This document shows, piece by piece, positions 6,548 to 20,195 of a stretch of 64,000 bases of DNA. Numbering within the stretch: the stretch's first letter is position 1; each line of letters begins with the position of its first letter. The DNA is taken from positions 1 to 64,000 of the forward strand of contig CAJJBV010000001.1 of NCBI GenBank assembly GCA_905182525.1, in the 5' to 3' direction. The notes beneath the pieces were generated by a model. The model saw nothing but the letters and a program-made list of their open reading frames with translations, ran no database searches and was not told the origin of the DNA. Both the position numbers and the translations under genes were made by a program. The stretch comes from Cryomorphaceae bacterium. Its GTDB lineage: Bacteria > Bacteroidota > Bacteroidia > Flavobacteriales_D > Parvicellaceae.

Positions 6548-6629
6548 AACTATATATTTAATTTTAGAATTAAATATATAAAAAAAGCAAATTCCTCTGC
6601 TCTTTTAAAATTTCAATATTTTATTAATT

Positions 6630-9600
6630 TTAATGACTAATAATAATCTTTTTAATAACTAGCTCATCTTTTATTAAAAAGCTTAATAAGTATATATTAT
6701 TACTAAAAATAGAAGTATTCAATGAAATACTTTTAGAATTTATATCTAAACTAGAATAAACAATTCTTCCTAAAAGATCTTTCACTTCCAATGACTTAAT
6801 ATTATCACTTGATGATATATTTAGTATATCATTGGCAGGGTTGGGATATAAATTAATTGTACTACTTGAATTATTCCAAATACCAGTTGAAGTAATATAA
6901 GTCACATTAAATAAAGCTGTATCAGCACATCCGTTGGTATCTAATGCAACAACTGAATATAATCCATTAGTGTCAGGTGTAATCATAGAGTTAGTATCTT
7001 CAGTATTCCATAAATAACTTACCCCCCCGCTAGCAACTAAATCAATACCAGATTTATCAATTGAGGCAGATACACTATAAATCATTAAGTCTAGAGTTAC
7101 TGTACTATCACAGCCATTAACATCTGTATAAGTTTTGGTGTAACTACCCGTTGAATCATAAGTCATTCCATCCCATACAAATAAATCACATGTTGTAACT
7201 AAAACAGTAGATGTTGATCCATTATTAATTGTAAGATCTAATGTTACTAAACTATCACATCCATTTACACGTTGATAAACATTATTATATGTTCCTGATG
7301 AATCATAAGTAATCCCTCCCCATATAAATGAATCACATTCTGTTAATGAAATAGTTGATGATGTACTATTATTGATTGTAAGATCTAACGTTACTATACT
7401 ATCACAACCATTTGCATCTACATAATTATTAATATATAAACCAGTAGAATCATAAGTTGCACCGTCCCAAACAAATGAATCACATTCAGTAACTTTGACA
7501 GTTAAAATAGAGCTTCTATTTATAGTAAGATCTAATGTCACTACACTGTCACAGCCATTAACATTAGCGTAAATATTAGTAAATAATCCTGTTGAATCAT
7601 AAGTTACACCGTCCCATACAAATGAATTACATGATGTAACTGAAATGGTAGATATAGACTCAATATAAATTGTTAGATCTAGTGTTACTATACTATCACA
7701 GCCATTAGAACCTGTGTAAATATTAAAATATGTTCCTGTTGAATCATACGCTACTCCATCCCATATAAATGAATCACAAACTGATACAGGTAAAGTTAGA
7801 AATGAACTATTATTAATTATGAGATCTAAATTAACCGTACTATCACAACCGTTTGAACCAAGATAAATGTTGGTAAAGGTTCCTGTTGAATCATAATTTA
7901 CTCCATCCCATACAAATGAATCACATTCTATTAATGAAATAGTTGATGATGTACTATTATTGATTGTAAGATCTAATGTAACTACACTGTCACAACCATT
8001 AGTACCTACGTAATTATTAGTATAGATCCCAGTTGAATCATAGATTATTCCATCCCATACAAAAGAATCACATGCTGTAAAAGGAACAGTTAAGTATGAA
8101 CTATTGTTAATTGTTAAATCTAAAGTAATTAAACAAGAAGATGTTAAAGTATCATAGTATAAACCTGTTGAATCATAATTATTTCCATTCCAAATATAAT
8201 TATCACAAGATGAAATTTGAAGAATAGTACCATTACCAATAATTGATAAATTTAATATTACTGTACTATCACAACCGTTTGAACCCGTATAATTATTGGT
8301 GTAGATTCCAGTTGAATCATAAGTTATCCCATCCCATAGTAATGAGTCACATCTATAAAAATTTAAAGTAGATGTAGAACTATTGTTAATTGTAAGATCT
8401 AATGTGACTGTACTATCACAACCGTTTGAACCAAGATAAACGTTGGAAAAGATTCCTGTTGAATCATAATTTACACCATCCCAAGTATATAAATCACATG
8501 CTGTAACTGTGACAGTTGATGTTGAACCATAAATAATTATAACATTAACTGAGTCTGTTCCAGTGCAGCCATTGGCATCTGATTCCAGTAACTGTATAAA
8601 TTGCATTTACGGTTGGGTTGAAAGAAGTTCCATCGCTTACACCATTATCCCAAAGATAAGTCGTTGCTCCAGTTCCTGAAAGTGTTACAGCACCTGAATC
8701 ACAAACAGCTTGGTCAGCTCCAGCGGATACTATTGGTAGAGCATTGACAGTAACATCAACTTGATCTGCTGCAATACAACCATTTCCGTCTGTTCCGATA
8801 ACTGTGTAAGTTGCAGTTGTAGTTGGGTGAAAGAAGTTCCGTCAGTAACTCCGTTATCCCAAACATAAAATATTGCACCAGATGCTGAAAGTATCACAGC
8901 ACCTCCATCACAAACAGCTTGATCAGCTCCGGCTGATACTGTAGGTAAAGTATTTACAGTAACATCAAGATTGTCTGTTGCAGTACAACCATTAATATCT
9001 GTTCCAGTAACTGTGTAAGATGCAGTAGCAGATGGTGAGAATGAAGTACCATTAGTAGCTCCGTTATCCCAAATATAAGTCGTTGCTCCAGTTGCTAAAA
9101 GTGTTACAGCACTTCCATCACAAATAAATTGATCAGCACCAGCTGACACTGTAGGTAAAGTATTTACAGTAATATCAACATTGTTTGTTCCAGTACAACC
9201 ATTTCCGTCTGTTCCAATAACTGTGTAAGTTGTAGTTATAGTTGGGTTGAAAGAAGTTCCATCGCTTACACCATTATCCCAAAGATAAGTCGTTGCTCCA
9301 GTTCCTGAAAGTGTTACAGCACCTGAATCACAAACAGCTTGATCAGCTCCAGCGGATACTATTGGTAGAGCATTGACAGTAACATCAACTTGATCTGCTG
9401 CAATACAACCATTTCCGTCTGTTCCGATAACTGTGTAAGTTGCAGTTGTAGTTGGAGTGAAAGAAGTAACGTCAGTAACTCCGTTATCCCAAACATAAAA
9501 TATTGCACCAGATGCTGAAAGTATCACAGCACCTCCATCACAAACAGCTTGATCAGCTCCGGCTGATACTGTAGGTAAAGTATTTACAGTAACATCAAGA

Positions 9601-12600
9601 TTGTCTGTTGCAGTACAACCATTAATATCTGTTCCAGTAACTGTGTAAGATGCAGTAGCAGATGGTGAGAATGAAGTACCATTAGTAACTCCGTTATCCC
9701 AAATATAAGTCGTTGCTCCAGTTGCTAAAAGTGTTACAGCACTTCCATCACAAATAAATTGATCAGCACCAGCTGACACTGTAGGTAAAGTATTTACAGT
9801 AACATCAACATTGTTTGTTCCAGTACAACCATTTCCGTCTGTTCCTATAACTGTGTAAGTTCTAGTTATAGTTGGGTTGAAAGAAGTTCCATCGCTTACA
9901 CCATTATCCCAAAGATAAGTCGTTGCTCCAGTTCCTGAAAGTGTTACAGCACCTCCATCACAAACAGCTTGATCAGCACCAGCTGATACTGTTGGTAATG
10001 CATTGATAGTTAAATTCCCAGTAGCTGAAGCACTTTGACAACCATTAACATCAGTTACCACTACGGTATAAGCTCCAGCAGTTATTCCATTTATAGTACC
10101 AGTAGTTCCAGTTCCATTACCGCTCCATAGCCATGCTGTTGCAGTAGAACTTGAAGCTGTAAACGCAGCAGCAGGATCACCAGTACATATCGTTGCATTA
10201 TTTACTGTAACTGTTGGCAAAGCATTAATAATAACATCAACTTGATCAGTTCCCGTACAACCATTTCCATCAGTTCCAGTCACTGTATAAGTTGTAGTTG
10301 CACTTGCTGTAAAAGCAGTTCCGTTAGTTACACCATTATCCCAAGCATAAGTTGTTGCTCCAAATCCATTTAAAGTCACAGCAACTCCATCACAAACAAT
10401 TTGATCGATTCCTGCGTTTACAGAGGGCGAACTAAAAATTGAAAAGTTTGTACTATCTAAACTTAATCCACAACTATTTGAGAATTCATAGCTAATTGTG
10501 TGAATCCCGACTCCTAATAAATTTGGTTTTAAAGAATCTTCTTCAACGCCATCAATTTTATATATACCACCAGATGGTATACCATAATTTAATTTTATTT
10601 TAGAATCATTAATACAAAAATCAGAAATATTGTTTAGCTGTGCATTGACATCAGCATCAATTTGAATATTTTTTGTTGAGGAAGATGTACATCCATTTTC
10701 AGTTACAGTATAAGTAATTGGAAAAGATCCAACGCCAGAGAAAAACGGATAAAAATTATTGCTTATTACAAAAGGTCCAGAATAAGTTCCTCCAAAAGGA
10801 CTAGCCGAAAACAATGGAGTAGAAGATATATTCTCACATATTGAATCGTAATCTGGATAATTAATAGTTGGAGAAGCATTTACAACTAAATAAAAGTCTA
10901 AACTGTCTTCGCAGTTTTGAGCAACAGAGTATTTGTATCTAATTAAATGCGTACCAACTCCAGCATTAATAGGTTCAAAAGTAGTACCTGAAACTCCTGG
11001 ACCCACATAACTTCCACCACTTGGATTAACTGTTGCACCTAATGAATAAGGTCCATCACCCTCACAAAAATTGGGAATGTTATTAGATAAAACTAATGGT
11101 GGTGTTTGAACTGTGTTTGCAATTCTTATAGCGTCATCGCTACATCCTTGAGAATTGGTGTAAGTATAAGTAATCAAACTTGGTCCTGGTCCCAACAAGG
11201 TTGGGTTAAATACAGAATCGTTTACAATACCTAGTCCTGACCAAATTCCACCAAGTGGAGATCCAGCGGGAACTACAGTTGGTCCACCAGAAAAGCAAGC
11301 TGTAAATGTACTTTGTGGTACGGTTACATTTGGTAATGGTGCTATGGTTACATTTACTACATTACTGGTGTCTTTACATCCTAAACTGTCGGTAATTAAA
11401 GAAAAATCTCCAACATTATTAGTTGTGAATACTGGATTGTTACTGATAGAGGTTGAATTGCCATTGTTTACCCAATTGTAGGATATTCCAGAACTTACAT
11501 TGGCATTTAAAGTTGCTGAATTACCAGCACCACAAATTACTGGATTAAGTGGTAATACTTGAGAAAAAACTGGGCTACATGGTATTATTTCAGTTACAAA
11601 GGCATCATTGAGTTGATTGGTTGTAGTTGTGTAATCACCAAAAGATCTGTATTGGGGACCTATATTTCCACAAAATACTGCTTGGTTTTCGTTTCCAATG
11701 GATAAATCGTAAATACCTAAAGAAAATGTTTCAGGATTAGAAGCATTACCTCCACTTCCGTCAATCTGAAGGACGCTACTGTTAGTAGTACTACTTACCC
11801 AGTTAACCGAAGTTAAGTTAGTGTCAATGTTTACAAATGTTATTTCGTCTGATCGAGAGAAAGTATTGTTATCTAAATTTATAGTTCCATTTAGTGTGCC
11901 ACCAAAAATTAATTGATTGTCTTTTATTTCTAGAGCAGTAATGGGGAAGCTATTTTGAGATTGCGAGGGGGTGCTATTTTGAGATTGCGAAGGAAAAGTA
12001 TTTAATAAATTACAATTAGTTGGAACAAAATTTGAATTTAATTTAACTAGTGTGTTAGTATGTTCAGTTACATTGATTCCAGCTATAGTTTGGTTAAAAT
12101 TACTATTTGCATAGTTGTTAAACGCAAAATAAACATTATCTAAATTATCAATTGATAAACCAAAAGATAGGTATTTTAGTGAGTTACCATTTCCAAATCC
12201 TGAGTTGAAAGAGCTTAAAGCATTTTCTAGTTTATAAACGTTATTGTAAAATCCTGAACTATCTAATTCTAAAATCATTAATGCACCCTGAGGAAAGTTA
12301 GCAGACGCTACTGAAAAACTAGATATGGAAGTAGGAGTAGACGGGCCTCCAATTTTACAACCATTACTAGAATAGTAGTATTGTGCAATTACATGATTGT
12401 TGGAGTTTATTTCAAAATCAAGACCCAATAAAGCATCAAAATCTTGATTAGTATTGCAATATATAGGGGTTAACCAACTGTTAGTTCCGTTAACATCTGT
12501 TTTTAGAATAAAACTATTGATGTATTCATAGCCATAAAAACCTCCTCCACCAGGAGCTTGTGTGTAGGGAAGTGTTAAGCCATCAAATTTTCTTCCATTT

Positions 12601-13244
12601 GGACCAACGCCTCCAAAGGGGTTATTGGAAGAAACTCTATTAGATGCCATTAAGTATACATAACCATTTTTAAATTTTATTTTGTTTCTTCCGTAATAAT
12701 TTTGTGTGTTGTTGTTATATCCATTTGCATTAGAGTTATTATCATTTTCTGTAGAGGCACCAGTTTTAATCCACTGAAAGTTTCCAGAAGTGTCGTACTT
12801 AACTAAGTAATTATCTGAGAATGATGCAGAATTGGATGTATGTGGATTAGCCGTTACTGAATTTCCATCAAAATTAGCTGTTGAAGAAAATAAGCCACTC
12901 ACATACAATCCCCCCTGGTTGTCTAATTCTATGTCCATTGCTTGATCAGAATCGGGACCTCCAGCAGTTTTTATCCAAATAGGATTTCCCAAAGGATCTA
13001 ATTTTCCGAAAAATATATCTTTTGAATTTCCCGTTATGGTGGTATTTTTAATGGTAGCTGAAATGTCGAAATTTCCAGCTATGTACTTGTTGCCTAGCTG
13101 ATCAACCTTTACAGCCCTTATTGAAGCCTGATAACCGGAAGAGGACGAAGTAACTGTGTTTAAAAAAGAAAAGCCTTGGCTATAAAAAATAGTCGTAGTA
13201 GAAGACATTATTAAAACAGTAATTATTTTTAAAATATATTTCAT
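6630..13244 (-). CDS. Giant repeat-rich secreted adhesin-like protein with T9SS sorting domain, two frameshifts
   Basis: Probably one protein of about 2,200 aa. The signal peptide is MKYILKIITVLIMSSTTTIFYS (start 13244). Next comes an SBBP-like beta-propeller region (about residues 35-545, with phrases such as KYIAGNFD, IFFGKLDPLGNPIWIKTAGG and GLYVSGLF). After Ig-like blocks (about 545-905) come eight ~70-residue repeats with VCDGGAVTLSGTGATTYLW and YTVIGTDGNGC signatures, plus one unlike block after the first of them. Then follow ten 49-residue repeats (CDSFVWDG, YDSTG, NGCDS, VTLDLTINN) and a T9SS type A sorting domain (NLYPNPANDILNISS to the end at 6630). The frame is broken twice. Near 8826-8829 a base is missing (TTTCACCCAAC where the sister copy has TTTCACTCCAAC), and near 8583 there is one extra base. 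Only those two corrections are needed to read from end to end. Likely role: cell-surface attachment or matrix. Confidence 0.85.
7053..8523 (-). repeat. Ten tandem ~147-bp coding repeats (49 aa each)
   Basis: The C-terminal third of the giant adhesin holds ten copies of a 49-residue unit with the pattern CDxxxWDGxxYDSTGxxxNxYxxxNGCDSxVTLDLTINNSS; one copy is shortened and lacks the second GCDS. Each normal unit has two Cys, consistent with one disulfide per extracellular beta-sandwich unit (inference). Related units appear in the LamG adhesin upstream, for example NGCDSIVTLDLTI. Confidence 0.85.
8642..10010 (-). repeat. 630-bp higher-order tandem duplication in the giant adhesin
   Basis: The phrase ccattatcccaaagataag recurs at 8642, 9271 and 9901, that is with spacings of 629 and 630 bases. 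Each 630-bp block holds three different 210-bp (70-aa) Ig/PKD-like units in the same order. The two complete blocks are almost identical over long stretches, with only a few substitutions. The 629-base spacing reflects the one-base deletion that breaks the frame near 8826-8829. This is recent in-frame duplication of a three-domain block. Confidence 0.85.
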
Positions 13245-13532
13245 AATTTTTATTTTTTTTAATAACTAAAAAATAGTTTTGCTCATCAATTAACTTACTT
13301 TTTAATTTAAAAACTAAACATTACAATTCTCAAAAAATTCAAAAAAGTAATCTTGTTTAACTTTAATATTAAAAATTCAAACAATAATAAATTTTAAACA
13401 ACCAATAATATTTACCATTTGATAAAAAATTAATTTTTTTTTTACTAACTCTACATATTAAGTTCTCTTGATTATTCATTTGGAAAATATTAGTAATTAT
13501 CTAGAGAAAATTATTGTATTTAGCAGAAAAAG
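13245..13532. other. AT-rich intergenic region between the two adhesin genes
   Basis: 288 bases of extremely AT-rich sequence with several T runs between the stop of the LamG adhesin and the start of the giant adhesin. No ORF, RNA gene or clear hairpin was recognised. It should contain the giant adhesin's promoter if that gene is not co-transcribed with the upstream one. Confidence 0.5.
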
Positions 13533-16500
13533 CTACTGAATAATCAGTTTTCTTATTTCTATTAAGTTTCCTGTATCATCATACAATTGTATATAATACA
13601 AGCCCACTCCTCCAAAACTTGTAATTGGTATTTGAAACTGAGGAATGGTTATGAAACTATTAAATATATCTTGTCCTAATGAGTTTATAATTTTAAGGTT
13701 GTAGTTAGACATGGAATTAAAATTGCCATTGTCTATAAAGACTATATCGTTAGCCGGATTTGGATATATTTTTAGCGTATTTGAATTATTTGGAGAACTT
13801 ATTGCTGATAGATTAACATTTATAATAAGTGTATCTGTTACAGACACTAATACGGAATCGTAGTAGGTTATAGTATCATATATTGTAAAGTAGTTAGTGT
13901 CGTAATAAGTTACAAAACTAGTATCGAAAATACTAATGGAGTCGATTACTAAAAGACTATCAAAAACAGTAATAAATGTAGTGTCATAATTAGTGATGAA
14001 AGTAGTATCAAAACTATTTATAAAAGTGGTGTCATAAATACTAATGGAGTCGATTACTAAAACACTATCAAAAACAGTTATAAATGTAGTATCATAATTG
14101 GTGATGAAAGTAGTATCAAAACTATTTACAAAAGTGGTGTCATAAATACTAATGGAGTCTAATACCAAAACACTATCAAAAACAGTAATAAATGTAGTAT
14201 CATAATTAGTGATGAAAGTGGTATCAAAACTATTTATAAAAGTGGTGTCGTAAATACTAATGGAGTCTATTATCAAAACACTGTCAAAAACAGTTATAAA
14301 TGTAGTATCGTAATTGGTGATAAAGTAGTGTCAAAACTATTTGTAAAAGTGGTGTCGTAAATACTGATAGTATCATTTACCAAAATGCTATCAAATACAG
14401 TTATAATGGTGGTATCTGTACAATTATTCGGATTAAAAACATAATTAATATAATTTAATGATATACTATCACAGCCACCATTTGATGATAGCGTACTGTC
14501 AATTGATTCTAGATATGTTTTGGGTGAATTAGATTGAAATTCAACATTTGAAACGTAATACACTATAGTATCTGAACTTGTATAATTGTTTGTAATGGTC
14601 AAGTTTAGTGAAACAATACTGTCACAACCACTGGCAGCTCCTCCTACAAAATAAAAAGTAGCGGTATTGTTGTTTGTTGTATATGTGTTCCCGTCAATCC
14701 ATGTGTAAGAGTTGCATGCTAACTGAGTGTCAGTTCCTGTGATAGCAACAATGGTAAGGTCTGAGTATAGCAACACTATCACAACCAGCAGCGTTTGTAA
14801 AAGGACAAAGTTGAGATGGGGCGTCAGTATCATAGGCGGCACCATTTAAGGTTCCATTATTTGCATTAGAAGTCAGATCAAATACGGTAGTTCCACTTCC
14901 TTCTTCAAAGTTCCAATAGCCAACTAGACCTACTTCATTAACTTCAGGTGAGCAGTCCATGTAATTTTGAATTTCTAGTTGGGTTAGTGCAATATCCCAA
15001 ATTCTAACTTGATCTATTTGACCTTCATAATTTTGCAATAGGCTAGTCCCACGTCCTATTTCTTTTGAAGCATTATTATTAATAAATGTATAGGGATTTG
15101 TATTGATTATCTGCGGTATTCCATTAATATAAATTTGATGATTATTGCCTACTCCATCTCTAGTATAAGCAATATGTACCCATCCACTGCTAGTATTTAT
15201 TACATTACTACCTGTAATAGCAACATAAGTACCAACCCCAGTAACTGCAACATAATTTGTTCCGATAGCATCACTTCCTATTTCAAGTTGAAATGATCCA
15301 GGATCGTTATTCTTTCTTGTTGAATAAATTCCATGTCGGTTAGACAAATTCGCAGGGTTAATCCAGGCTTCAATAGTTACTGAATTATCAACATCTAATA
15401 CACTATTGTTCCCGACATCAACGTAATCATTAATACCATCGAGGCTTGCAGAATAATTATTACTTATAGAAGAACCAGTATAAGTACCGCTACTATCATA
15501 AGTAGTTCCATTCCACACTACACTACCACAGGCTGTAATGTTTGTATAAGAAGTATCAGTGGTAATTGTCAAATCCAAGGTGACGATTGAATCACAACCA
15601 TTAGCAGCACCACCTGTAATGTTAAAAGTAGCGGTGTTGTTGTTTGCTGTATAGGTATTCCCGTCTATCCAGGTGTAAGAATCGCATTCTGTTCTTGTAT
15701 CCGTTGCTGTAACAGGATTACAAAGTAATTGATTCACCAATGAGATAGAGTCAATTTCTGTTTGGGTTAATGCTCTATCGTAGATAATTATATCATCTAA
15801 CTTACCATCTAAGTATCTGAACTGATTCCACTCTCCGGCTAATCCAAAAGTTAAATCACCATCTTGGTTAGAAAGATTTAATCCAGAAGTGTTTTTAGGT
15901 ATGGTACCTAGCTTAACACCGTTTTTATAATATCTAAGACTATCACCATCTGAAGAATATATAAAGTTAGTCCAAACTCCTGGAGTAAAGTTCATACCAT
16001 TATTATATCCAAATACTACTTGTTGGCCGTTATCCGTCCAGCACACAAGACTAAGTGTGGTATCTGTTGCTCCAAATATATTATACTCCCAGTCTAAAAC
16101 ATATGGTTGGTTAAATTCTCTTTTACCCATTATTCCAATTTCTGGACTGTAGGAGTATTGTGTGGATTGTGAAACTGTAATATTATCAATAGCGATATCG
16201 CCTGTGAAGCAATCTTGGCCAACTTGACTGGTATATTCAAACTCGAGTTGTACAAATTCACCTAAAAAAGCCGATAAATCAACTGTTACATTCTGCCAAG
16301 GGGCTGAATTGGATGTTTGTTGTTGCCCTGATAATGTATAAACTGTTGTATAACCTAGGCTATTTGAGCCTACTTTTACATTAAGAGTTCCCATTTTAGC
16401 TCCGTAGGCGTGAAAATAAAATGACAATTCTGACGTATCACTTGTTGTTAAGTCTATAGCAGGTGAGTACATTGATCCATGGTAAGGTACCGAATGATAG

Positions 16501-16997
16501 TCCCCAGGAATTGTTGTTTCGTAATAACGATATTTACTTCCAGATTGAGCACCATTAGGTCCTGTTCCAACACTGGCTGTTGCTCCAGAATGCCTAACCC
16601 ATTTATCATTTTGAACGGAAAAACTAAGATCTCCACCCCAATAATTAATAGACTCAAAATCTTCTTCAAATGCTGGAGATGCTGGAAGTTGGGTTAATGT
16701 CGGATTAACCCAAAAGGAGAAAGTGAATTCATTATTTGGAAAAGACAAAAGATCATCGTCATTTACTAAAATATAATCATCAATGCCATCAAAACTGATA
16801 TGCAGAAGATGGTTTCCAAAGCGATCCTCTGTCAAAACAGCACCGTTAACGGTTCCATTTAAATTGTTTCCACTTGAATCGTTAGCATTTCCGCTAAATG
16901 GCCAGTAACCAACAAGCCCATTGGTGGGTATTTGTGAGAATAATGTATTACTAAAGACAATTAGCATGATCGCTGGAACTAATACTCGTTTGTGCAT
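13533..16997 (-). CDS. LamG-domain surface protein with T9SS sorting domain and Asp/Thr repeats, two frameshifts
   Basis: Secreted protein of about 1,150 aa. ATG 16997 (MHKRVLVPAIMLIVFSNTLFSQ, a signal peptide) is preferred over a TTG nine bases upstream. Order of parts: LamG/concanavalin-like domain (GLVGYWPFSGNANDSSGN), interrupted by a MAM-like block (FEEDFESINYWGG to IAIDNITVSQ) and resuming at SPEIGIMGKREF; a CDSYTWIDGNTYTANNN repeat; a second LamG domain (SLDGINDYVDVGNNSV to GLVGYWNFEEGSGTT); another CNSYTWIDGNTYT repeat; four to five 36-aa DTTF repeats; and a T9SS sorting domain (LKIYPNPANDIVFIDNG to the end). Two single-base breaks are needed: an extra base near 14759-14764 (GCDSVAIL then DLTIVAITGTD) and a missing base near 14319-14324. 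It lies 115 bases downstream of a membrane LuxR-type regulator, so control by that protein is plausible. Confidence 0.85.
13850..14420 (-). repeat. 108-bp tandem coding repeat (36-aa Asp/Thr-rich unit)
   Basis: The string aatggagtc recurs at 13935, 14043, 14151 and 14259, exactly 108 bases apart, with a diverged unit on each side. The encoded unit reads DSISIYDTTFINSFDTTF followed by ITNYDTTFITVFDSVLV. The spacing of DTTF/DSV every 7-10 residues suggests an elongated beta stalk or a metal-binding rod (inference). The copies are near identical, so recent expansion is likely. One of the gene's frameshifts falls inside this array. Confidence 0.85.
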
Positions 16998-17112
16998 AGG
17001 TGGCAATTAATTTAATCTAAGATTTATTTTACTAAACTACTGCAGATTTAATGATTAAGAAAATAAAAGGGGGTGACAATAGGGTGTCTTACTTGTTTTT
17101 ATTTAGAATATC

Positions 17113-18975: not shown

Positions 18976-19554
18976 TTACTTTTTTAGTATTCCTTTTCTA
19001 ATTCTACTTAAGCTTTGTGTAGTAATTCCCAGATAAGATGCTATGTGATAGTTTAAGGCATAATTTTCAATTCCAGGATATTGTTTTAGAAATTGAATAT
19101 AATTCTCTGATGAATTTAGTTGTAATTGATTTAAAATTCTTTTCTGCAAACTAACAACATGTCGTTCTAAGTTTTTCCTATGCATTGATTCAATTTGTGG
19201 GAATTTTAAAAAAATATTTTCAATTCCTTCAATTACAGAAGTTTCTACAATATGTGAATCTACAATACATTCTACAGTCTGAATTGATTTTTCTTTATTG
19301 AAAATCGCAATGTAATCACTAATCCAATCATTTTTTAAAGCAAATTGTAGAGTGTGTTCTTTTCCGCTGCTATCAAATACATAGGATCTAAGACAACCAT
19401 CAAGAACAAAATATGTTTTATTTACTAATTGATTTTCTGAAATTAAAATATCACCTTTAAGTAACTTTCTAGAACTTGAAATAGACCTAGTGAATTCTTT
19501 AACCTCGTTTGATAAATCAATTCTTTTAGAAATATATTCAAATAGTTGATCCAT
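18976..19554 (-). CDS. Crp/Fnr-family transcriptional regulator (second tandem copy)
   Basis: 192 aa. Residues 20-125 form a cyclic-nucleotide-binding-like beta barrel (KGDILISENQLVNKTYFVLDGCLRSY, GKEHTLQF), and the C terminus is a compact winged HTH (NYHIASYLGITTQSLSRIRK). The Fnr-type Cys cluster is absent, so oxygen sensing by an Fe-S cluster is not expected, and ligand binding cannot be judged. It is a close paralogue of the next gene upstream, with the same length and the same MDQLFEYI start and ILNQLQL hinge; I estimate a bit over half of positions identical by eye. The 62-base gap between them suggests co-transcription. Confidence 0.88.
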   Translation of the reverse strand: MDQLFEYISKRIDLSNEVKEFTRSISSSRKLLKGDILISENQLVNKTYFVLDGCLRSYVFDSSGKEHTLQFALKNDWISDYIAIFNKEKSIQTVECIVDSHIVETSVIEGIENIFLKFPQIESMHRKNLERHVVSLQKRILNQLQLNSSENYIQFLKQYPGIENYALNYHIASYLGITTQSLSRIRKGILKK

Positions 19555-19616
19555 TTTTTATATTAGGTCTTAATTTTCTGATTTAAGGTTTAATAATTAA
19601 TTAAAAATAATTTAAG

Positions 19617-20195
19617 CTATTTTTTTATTAATTCACCTCTAAGCCTGCTTAAACTTTGTTGAGTAATTCCAAGGTATGATGCTATATGATAATTAAGGGC
19701 ATCCTTCTCAATATCAGGAAACTCCTTTTGAAATAGTTTATACTTTTCTAATGACGATAATTGCAGTTGATTTAAGATTCTCTTACTTAAACTTACAATT
19801 CTAGTCTCTAAATTTTTTCTATGAAATGTTTCTATAGCTGGATAAGCTTTAAAAACCTTTTCAATACTTACAGTGTTGGTTTCAATTATTGTACAATCCG
19901 ATAAACACTCAATTGTTAAACTTGCCTTTTCTTTACTGTAAAGTGCAAGATAATCACTAATCCACCAATCTTTAATTGCAAACTGAACAGTATGTTCTTT
20001 TCCAGATGGGTCAAATGAAAATGACCTTAAGCAACCACTTAAAACAAAAAAATATTGATTTACAATGTTTTGCCCTTGGTTAATTAAGTAGTCACCTTTT
20101 TTTACATTTCTAATTTTGGTTACAGAACGGATTAATTCTTTAGCATCGTCGCTTAATTTTATTCTTTTAGTAATATATTCAAAGAGTTGGTCCAT
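19617..20195 (-). CDS. Crp/Fnr-family transcriptional regulator (first tandem copy)
   Basis: 192 aa with the same layout as its downstream twin: barrel domain (KKGDYLINQGQNIVNQYFFV, SGCLRSFSFDPSGKEHTVQF), dimer helix (RKNLETRIVSLSKRILNQLQL) and HTH (YHIASYLGITQQSLSRLRG). It is the first gene of the minus-strand run leading to the TPR-LuxR regulator and the adhesins. Its upstream region, shared with the divergent CAP-domain gene, contains two perfect inverted repeats that are candidate operators. The recognition helices of the pair (TTQSLSRIR and TQQSLSRLR) are nearly the same, so the two may bind the same sites. Confidence 0.88.
   Translation of the reverse strand: MDQLFEYITKRIKLSDDAKELIRSVTKIRNVKKGDYLINQGQNIVNQYFFVLSGCLRSFSFDPSGKEHTVQFAIKDWWISDYLALYSKEKASLTIECLSDCTIIETNTVSIEKVFKAYPAIETFHRKNLETRIVSLSKRILNQLQLSSLEKYKLFQKEFPDIEKDALNYHIASYLGITQQSLSRLRGELIKK

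Follow-up and report, generated by a model that had tools for sequence, protein, structure and literature searches.

The window analysed here, a 64,000-nucleotide stretch of contig CAJJBV010000001.1 from a Cryomorphaceae bacterium, holds a gene in which Asp-Thr pairs recur at regular steps just before a T9SS sorting signal. The question raised by this locus is what such an array is for. The initial annotation saw in it four near-identical 108-bp copies of a repeat without a recognised family, which might be a calcium-binding or an O-glycosylated stalk. The reading preferred here, which stands at about an even chance, is that the array forms a beta-register, probably O-glycosylated stalk that is kept on the cargo protein after cleavage of the C-terminal sorting domain (CTD).

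The minus strand is the coding strand of the array, and the Asp-Thr-rich (DT) region extends from approximately 13821 to 14411. Tandem Repeats Finder (TRF) reported a period of 108 bp at 13928-14406 (4.4 copies, 90% matches, 0% indels, score 748). The intact units are 36 amino acids each, with the consensus YDTTF[IV]NSFDTTFITNYDTTFITVFDS[VL]LV[IL]DSISI, and D[ST] pairs within the array follow one another at successive steps of 8, 8, 8, 6 and 6 residues. The repeat is real, although only three of the four copies are intact 108-bp units; the fourth lacks one base, and degenerate DT sequence lies on either side. The features of the gene are:

14730-17006, minus strand: first frame, a 758-aa ORF with a signal-peptide-like N-terminus, LamG and MAM
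16167-16613, minus strand: MAM domain (PF00629), at residues 132-280 of this ORF
14967-15440, minus strand: best-matching stretch of Laminin_G_3 (PF13385), at residues 523-680 of the same ORF
14294-14845, minus strand: middle frame, in which the DT region begins
13821-14411, minus strand: whole DT-rich linker, interrupted by the frame break near 14321; D[ST] recurs at intervals of 6 or 8 residues
14253-14359, minus strand: repeat unit u1, where loss of one base near 14321 (TTTC to TTT) breaks the frame
14145-14252, minus strand: repeat unit u2, intact, 36 aa
14037-14144, minus strand: repeat unit u3, intact, 36 aa
13929-14036, minus strand: repeat unit u4, intact, 36 aa
13821-13928, minus strand: degenerate downstream DT stretch with the end ...VTDTLII; this stretch is the part common to relatives
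13533-14276, minus strand: 247-aa ORF that carries both the intact array and the CTD
13539-13769, minus strand: T9SS type A C-terminal sorting domain (PF18962/TIGR04183)

Pairs of intact copies gave pN/pS values of 0.12 to 0.18, based on few differences. Because these are mostly synonymous, the array is a protein-level repeat rather than a chance repeat of DNA, which suggests constraint on the copies at the level of the protein. The 160-aa stretch encoded by 13797-14276 contains 19 D[ST][AILMTV] sites, compared with 3.4 in shuffled versions. A search of the bacterium's own genome for a second copy of the array returned the window locus only.

The array belongs to one gene spread over three frames (14730-17006, 14294-14845 and 13533-14276), with frame breaks near 14321 and within 14730-14845. 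A signal-like start (...RVLVPAIMLIVFSNTLFSQ), judged by eye, is present in the first of these ORFs, and the frame is broken before the CTD. The T9SS signal that had been placed after the array was confirmed, as the sorting domain follows it directly (PF18962, 32.2 bits with a cut-off of 27; TIGR04183, 28.7 bits with a cut-off of 23). The proposed stalk, linking a LamG head to an anchor, fits this layout, but array and LamG lie in separate ORFs and the frame is broken. The genome's own porU, the T9SS sortase gene (G000:C4:20770-24087, L117-L120), scored over the cut-off of NF033707, nearly the whole of whose 1095 positions were covered, in four pieces and three frames. Since this core secretion gene is split likewise, assembly indels are the likely cause of the frame breaks in both genes, and the porU split suggests that indel errors are widespread in the assembly. 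It is quite unlikely that the window copy is instead a true pseudogene, so that the array is not made within a full protein, a matter that concerns this copy and not the type of linker. The spread of one gene over three frames and the one-base deletion in u1 would be expected of a pseudogene; however, porU is equally broken while its model is wholly covered, and the array copies look constrained.

PF18962 had 77 matches in the 2.19-Mb genome, 74 of them over the cut-off; judged by these matches, the genome is very rich in putative T9SS cargo. Elsewhere in the window, the minus-strand region 6630-13244 has repeat arrays of its own (TRF 8553-9998, period 210; 7099-8542, period 147). The ORF 8730-13244 seems to continue out of frame in 6630-8606, the 210-bp repeat spanning their junction; the pair resembles T9SS-type repeat proteins, one or two in number, in which the frame breaks near 8553-8730. 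An adjacent pair of similar 192-aa ORFs at 18976-20195 (minus strand) resembles a duplicated pair of Crp-type regulators.

The DT linker is not confined to this gene. A profile of the linker end plus CTD, with no more than 11 candidates scored in each genome, matched at least 58 of 399 genomes of the order and at least 45 of 395 of the class (E ≤ 1e-12), and at least 5 of 395 of the phylum (E ≤ 1e-10); the three draws overlap, the genome of the window is among those drawn, and a match that begins only at position 30 of the profile or beyond may lack a DT linker. An LRR protein of the same genus (L013/L031) and an FG-GAP protein of the same family (L014/L029) each have a shorter DT linker followed by the same CTD subtype. 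The heads joined to DT linkers are LamG, LRR, FG-GAP and GDSL-lipase domains, with LamG in five of the ten carriers scanned (L177, L058, L074, L050 and L041), and this variety points to a module attached to different cargo. Long arrays built from other units were found in L080 (17 sites, mostly at a step of 8, with a GDSL lipase head), in L212 (21 sites at steps of 6/6/8) and in L058, L051, L177 and L065; different lineages carry arrays of different units. L177 (genome G947) is a LamG cargo protein from elsewhere in the phylum, beyond the draw of the window's class, with a DT linker in which most units contain a basic residue (DTVRVTVR, DTIKVTVR) and all sites fit the O-glycosylation sequon considered below.

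No named family for the linker was found in NCBIfam, PHROGs or PDB sequences, and a Pfam scan of ten carriers left it covered by no model. The initial annotation was right in recognising none, but the repeat does belong to a recurrent linker type. NCBIfam matches to repeat proteins (deoD, NuoB) were far under their cut-offs and were discounted as composition noise. The sole confirmed locus of a scan of genome contigs, L011 from Fibrobacter, was rejected, as it has one chance IYDTTFIN and no array. Viral contigs held no relative of the array and phage records no DNA match to it. The open-access literature, searched with a few wordings, gave no account of such a linker, which is weak evidence of absence. 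On these comparisons, the array is an extreme case of a recurrent Asp-Thr linker, without a family name, that lies upstream of one T9SS domain subtype in scattered genomes of the order and class.

The linkers keep a strict register. In 41 non-redundant linkers, 200 of the 204 gaps between successive D[ST] pairs were even (6, 8, 10 or 12 residues) and four were odd, with the reservations that the linkers are kin to each other, so that neither register nor sequon counts are independent events, and that the profile takes in approximately the last three DT sites, making these partly search-selected, while long arrays extend far past them. Shuffled linkers had 54% even gaps on average (maximum 88% in 500 shuffles), and in the ORFs of three sampled genomes 106 of 188 D[ST] gaps of 5-12 residues were even. 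Whole ORFs served as the control since passenger domains of cargo gave three gaps only. The set was drawn from 96 modules, 27 of which had at most one D[ST] in the Cys-free linker; of the other 69, thinning at 75% similarity left 41. Left out for having no CTD were L043 and L082 of 58 loci (by a script motif search) and L190, L191, L192 and L203 of 44. The Cys-free definition was adopted because a looser one (47 of 56 modules) put some gaps of 11 inside the preceding Ig-like domain.

Counted from D, even positions are mainly V, I, L and T and odd positions T, Y, F, N and H. Asp outnumbers Glu by 271 to 33, and Pro (3) and Gly (8) are rare among 2048 linker residues; this scarcity and the even gaps (200 of 204) are unlike a disordered, Pro/Gly/Ser-rich linker, which would have no register. 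Since length changes come in even steps, a two-residue periodicity like that of a beta-strand is kept, and the most likely structure of the linker is an extended or hairpin beta form, not random coil. This beta structure, which the strict even spacing suggests, was absent from the earlier proposals. Single-sequence AlphaFold2 models were all-beta, with strands of approximately 14-18 residues and turns approximately every 18, but at low confidence (mean pLDDT 54.3 and 67.8), and the five models disagree. Foldseek, run with the low-confidence array model, returned 191 matches at E ≤ 10 and no fold at E ≤ 0.001.

The regular D[ST] sites also fit a glycosylation motif. The motif published for Bacteroidota is D(S/T)(A/I/L/V/M/T), with S/G/C/F as rarer third residues (parts of PMC8729774 and PMC12871550); it requires Asp, and Leu is the commonest third residue (PMC12871550, in part). 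In the window linker (13821-14276), 19 of 21 D[ST] match D(S/T)(A/I/L/M/T/V). The likeness of DTTF to a glycosylation site, drawn in the initial annotation, holds for DTT but not for DTTF as such, F being rare in third place. Throughout the linkers, the sequon was fitted at 232 of 245 D[ST] sites versus 159 of 334 positions after other S/T. Because strand alternation alone would favour aliphatic residues in third place, residues were permuted within the same face (10,000 rounds; 195 sites in 32 linkers, the terminal conserved site being dropped). Leu occupied the third place 38 times versus 16.6 expected (maximum 28 in the 10,000 permutations) and members of the sequon set 182 times versus 167.0 (permutation maximum 182), while V and I together were depleted (78 versus 115.6). 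Relative to other same-face positions the third place is shifted toward Leu and Thr, and thus departs from them in the direction of the sequon. Sequon-set residues make up 81% of other same-face positions versus 93% of third places, and strand alternation accounts for part of the fit. The linker of L074 (genome G444), with DTNYVT units, keeps the even register, while one of its six sites fits the sequon and most are DTN, which is not enriched in exported proteins of G444 (15 versus 15.4 expected). The register therefore does not require sequons, and the L074 linker, at least, may be unglycosylated.

Sequon enrichment extends to the exported proteome. The bacterium's own genome was sampled as the window plus 21 stretches, minus the window repeat genes (6600-17100), and under crude signal/membrane classes 69 exported proteins had 148 D[ST][AILMTV] sites versus 69.5 expected (2.13), whereas 99 cytoplasmic proteins had 76 versus 72.0 (1.06). 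In the same exported proteins, the observed/expected ratio was 0.71 for the E version of the motif, 0.82 for the N version and 0.92 for the reversed motif. Thirty CTD loci (L087-L116) yielded 24 cargo frames, in which the parts upstream of the CTD had 96 sequons versus 38.2 expected and the CTDs had one versus 4.2. Two other genomes gave the same direction less cleanly (exported versus cytoplasmic, 1.68 versus 1.23 in G154 and 2.25 versus 1.65 in G444), and the 'cytoplasmic' enrichment in G444 shows this comparison to be noisy. The exported enrichment suggests that an O-glycosylation system may be active in the sampled genomes. At the metG locus of the own genome, no wzx, glycosyltransferase cluster or LFG-like cluster was found. 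The transferring enzyme (OTase) is given as undiscovered in part of PMC12871550. T9SS cargo is O-glycosylated in Tannerella forsythia (part of PMC8729774) and in P. intermedia (part of PMC11969387), while abundant cargo of P. gingivalis seems selected against O-glycosylation (part of PMC8729774). The cargo of the window's genome, rich in sequons outside sequon-poor CTDs, is unlike that account of P. gingivalis.

These observations have to be weighed against readings that do without the glycan, the fold or both. The linker might be an unglycosylated, beta-structured spacer in which D keeps one face soluble and stops aggregation, the sequon fit being a by-product of D-T-aliphatic alternation. 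This is possible, if doubtful. Such a spacer would have the even gaps (200 of 204), the all-beta models, the register without sequons of L074 and the many same-face positions (81%) already in the sequon set, but strand propensity does not predict a third place with Leu and Thr up and V and I down, as the sequon does. Asp is preferred over Glu by 271 to 33 where the sequon needs Asp (PMC12871550, in part), and the enrichment in the sampled exported proteins, with the active system it suggests, also speaks for glycosylation.

Slippage of DNA could have left a low-complexity spacer without specific structure or modification, as the tandem array of near-identical copies and the widely differing linker lengths of relatives might indicate. 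We disfavour this origin as very unlikely, since even residue numbers are kept through the length changes (200 of 204), differences between copies are mostly synonymous and residue composition is position-specific. The calcium-binding role proposed in the initial annotation, taken here as that of an RTX- or cadherin-like repeat that would stiffen on secretion with stacked Asp as ligands, is highly improbable. The Asp residues are regular on one face and, to judge from the CTD, extracellular; however, no RTX or other calcium-binding Pfam model matched at E ≤ 0.1, and one Asp per 6-12 residues provides few ligands unless strands stack. The RTX consensus nonapeptide is GGxGxDxUx, and the 8 Gly in 2048 linker residues are unlike RTX loops.

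Several known systems share part of this arrangement. T9SS type A cargo (Por_Secre_tail, PF18962/TIGR04183) has in common the over-cut-off sorting domain right after the linker, but the DT linker is upstream of the CTD model and no part of it. The S-layer proteins TfsA and TfsB of T. forsythia are likewise T9SS cargo with many D(S/T)X sites (PMC8729774, in part), whereas in the window the putative sites crowd into a short, periodic repeat with an even register. The strand-turn-strand of approximately 18 residues in the AlphaFold2 model recalls the amyloid repeats of curli CsgA and FapC, to which Foldseek matches of this low-confidence model were weak (TM-scores 0.13-0.15, the best, 0.15, to FapC; none at E ≤ 0.001). 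Functional amyloid repeats of the curli/Fap type have a Gln/Asn ladder, unlike the Asp-rich DT linker. Surface proteins of Gram-positive bacteria have Ser/Thr-rich stalks, often glycosylated, ahead of an LPXTG anchor. The DT linker shares with these its position between head and anchor, its richness in Thr and its variable length, but differs in its Asp-based sequon, beta register, scarcity of Pro and Gly (3 and 8 of 2048) and anchor.

If the array is a beta-register, O-glycosylated stalk, it would be a lengthened form of the recurrent linker that joins the surface head of T9SS cargo to the sorting domain, with one face made up of D and aliphatic side chains and the opposite face of Thr and aromatic ones. 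The cargo would reach the periplasm, where D-T/S sites of the linker would take O-glycans; S-layer cargo of T. forsythia is O-glycosylated despite blocked T9SS export (PMC10202324, in part). The CTD would then steer export through the T9SS, and PorU would cut in the linker ahead of the folded CTD, close to the conserved VTDTLII end or past it. In the long CTDs of P. intermedia the cleavage motif lies 19-30 residues from motif B (part of PMC11969387), a spacing at which most of the array would remain on the mature protein. The mature head would thus remain at the cell surface on a stiff, glycan-coated stalk, the length of which would be altered by lineage-specific duplication, here of the 36-aa unit.

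A bolder extension, which we regard as unlikely, would make DT linkers a separate and as yet undescribed type of surface stalk in Bacteroidota, a beta-ribbon, glycosylated and growing in two-residue steps, in which the aliphatic/Asp face pairs within or between molecules and the Thr face bears a dense row of O-glycans. If true, this would be a Gram-negative counterpart to the glycosylated stalks of Gram-positive bacteria, and lateral assembly of neighbouring cargo would be possible. The role of O-glycosylation in Bacteroidota is described as still largely unknown (part of PMC12871550), and a linker with up to approximately 20 evenly spaced sequons beside a secretion signal would be a compact natural substrate for questions about it. 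The same linker may offer a way to ask how the T9SS copes with a strand that bears dense glycans. As a structural prediction, the even-residue rule is simple and testable, and the linker could receive a family model for use in annotation.
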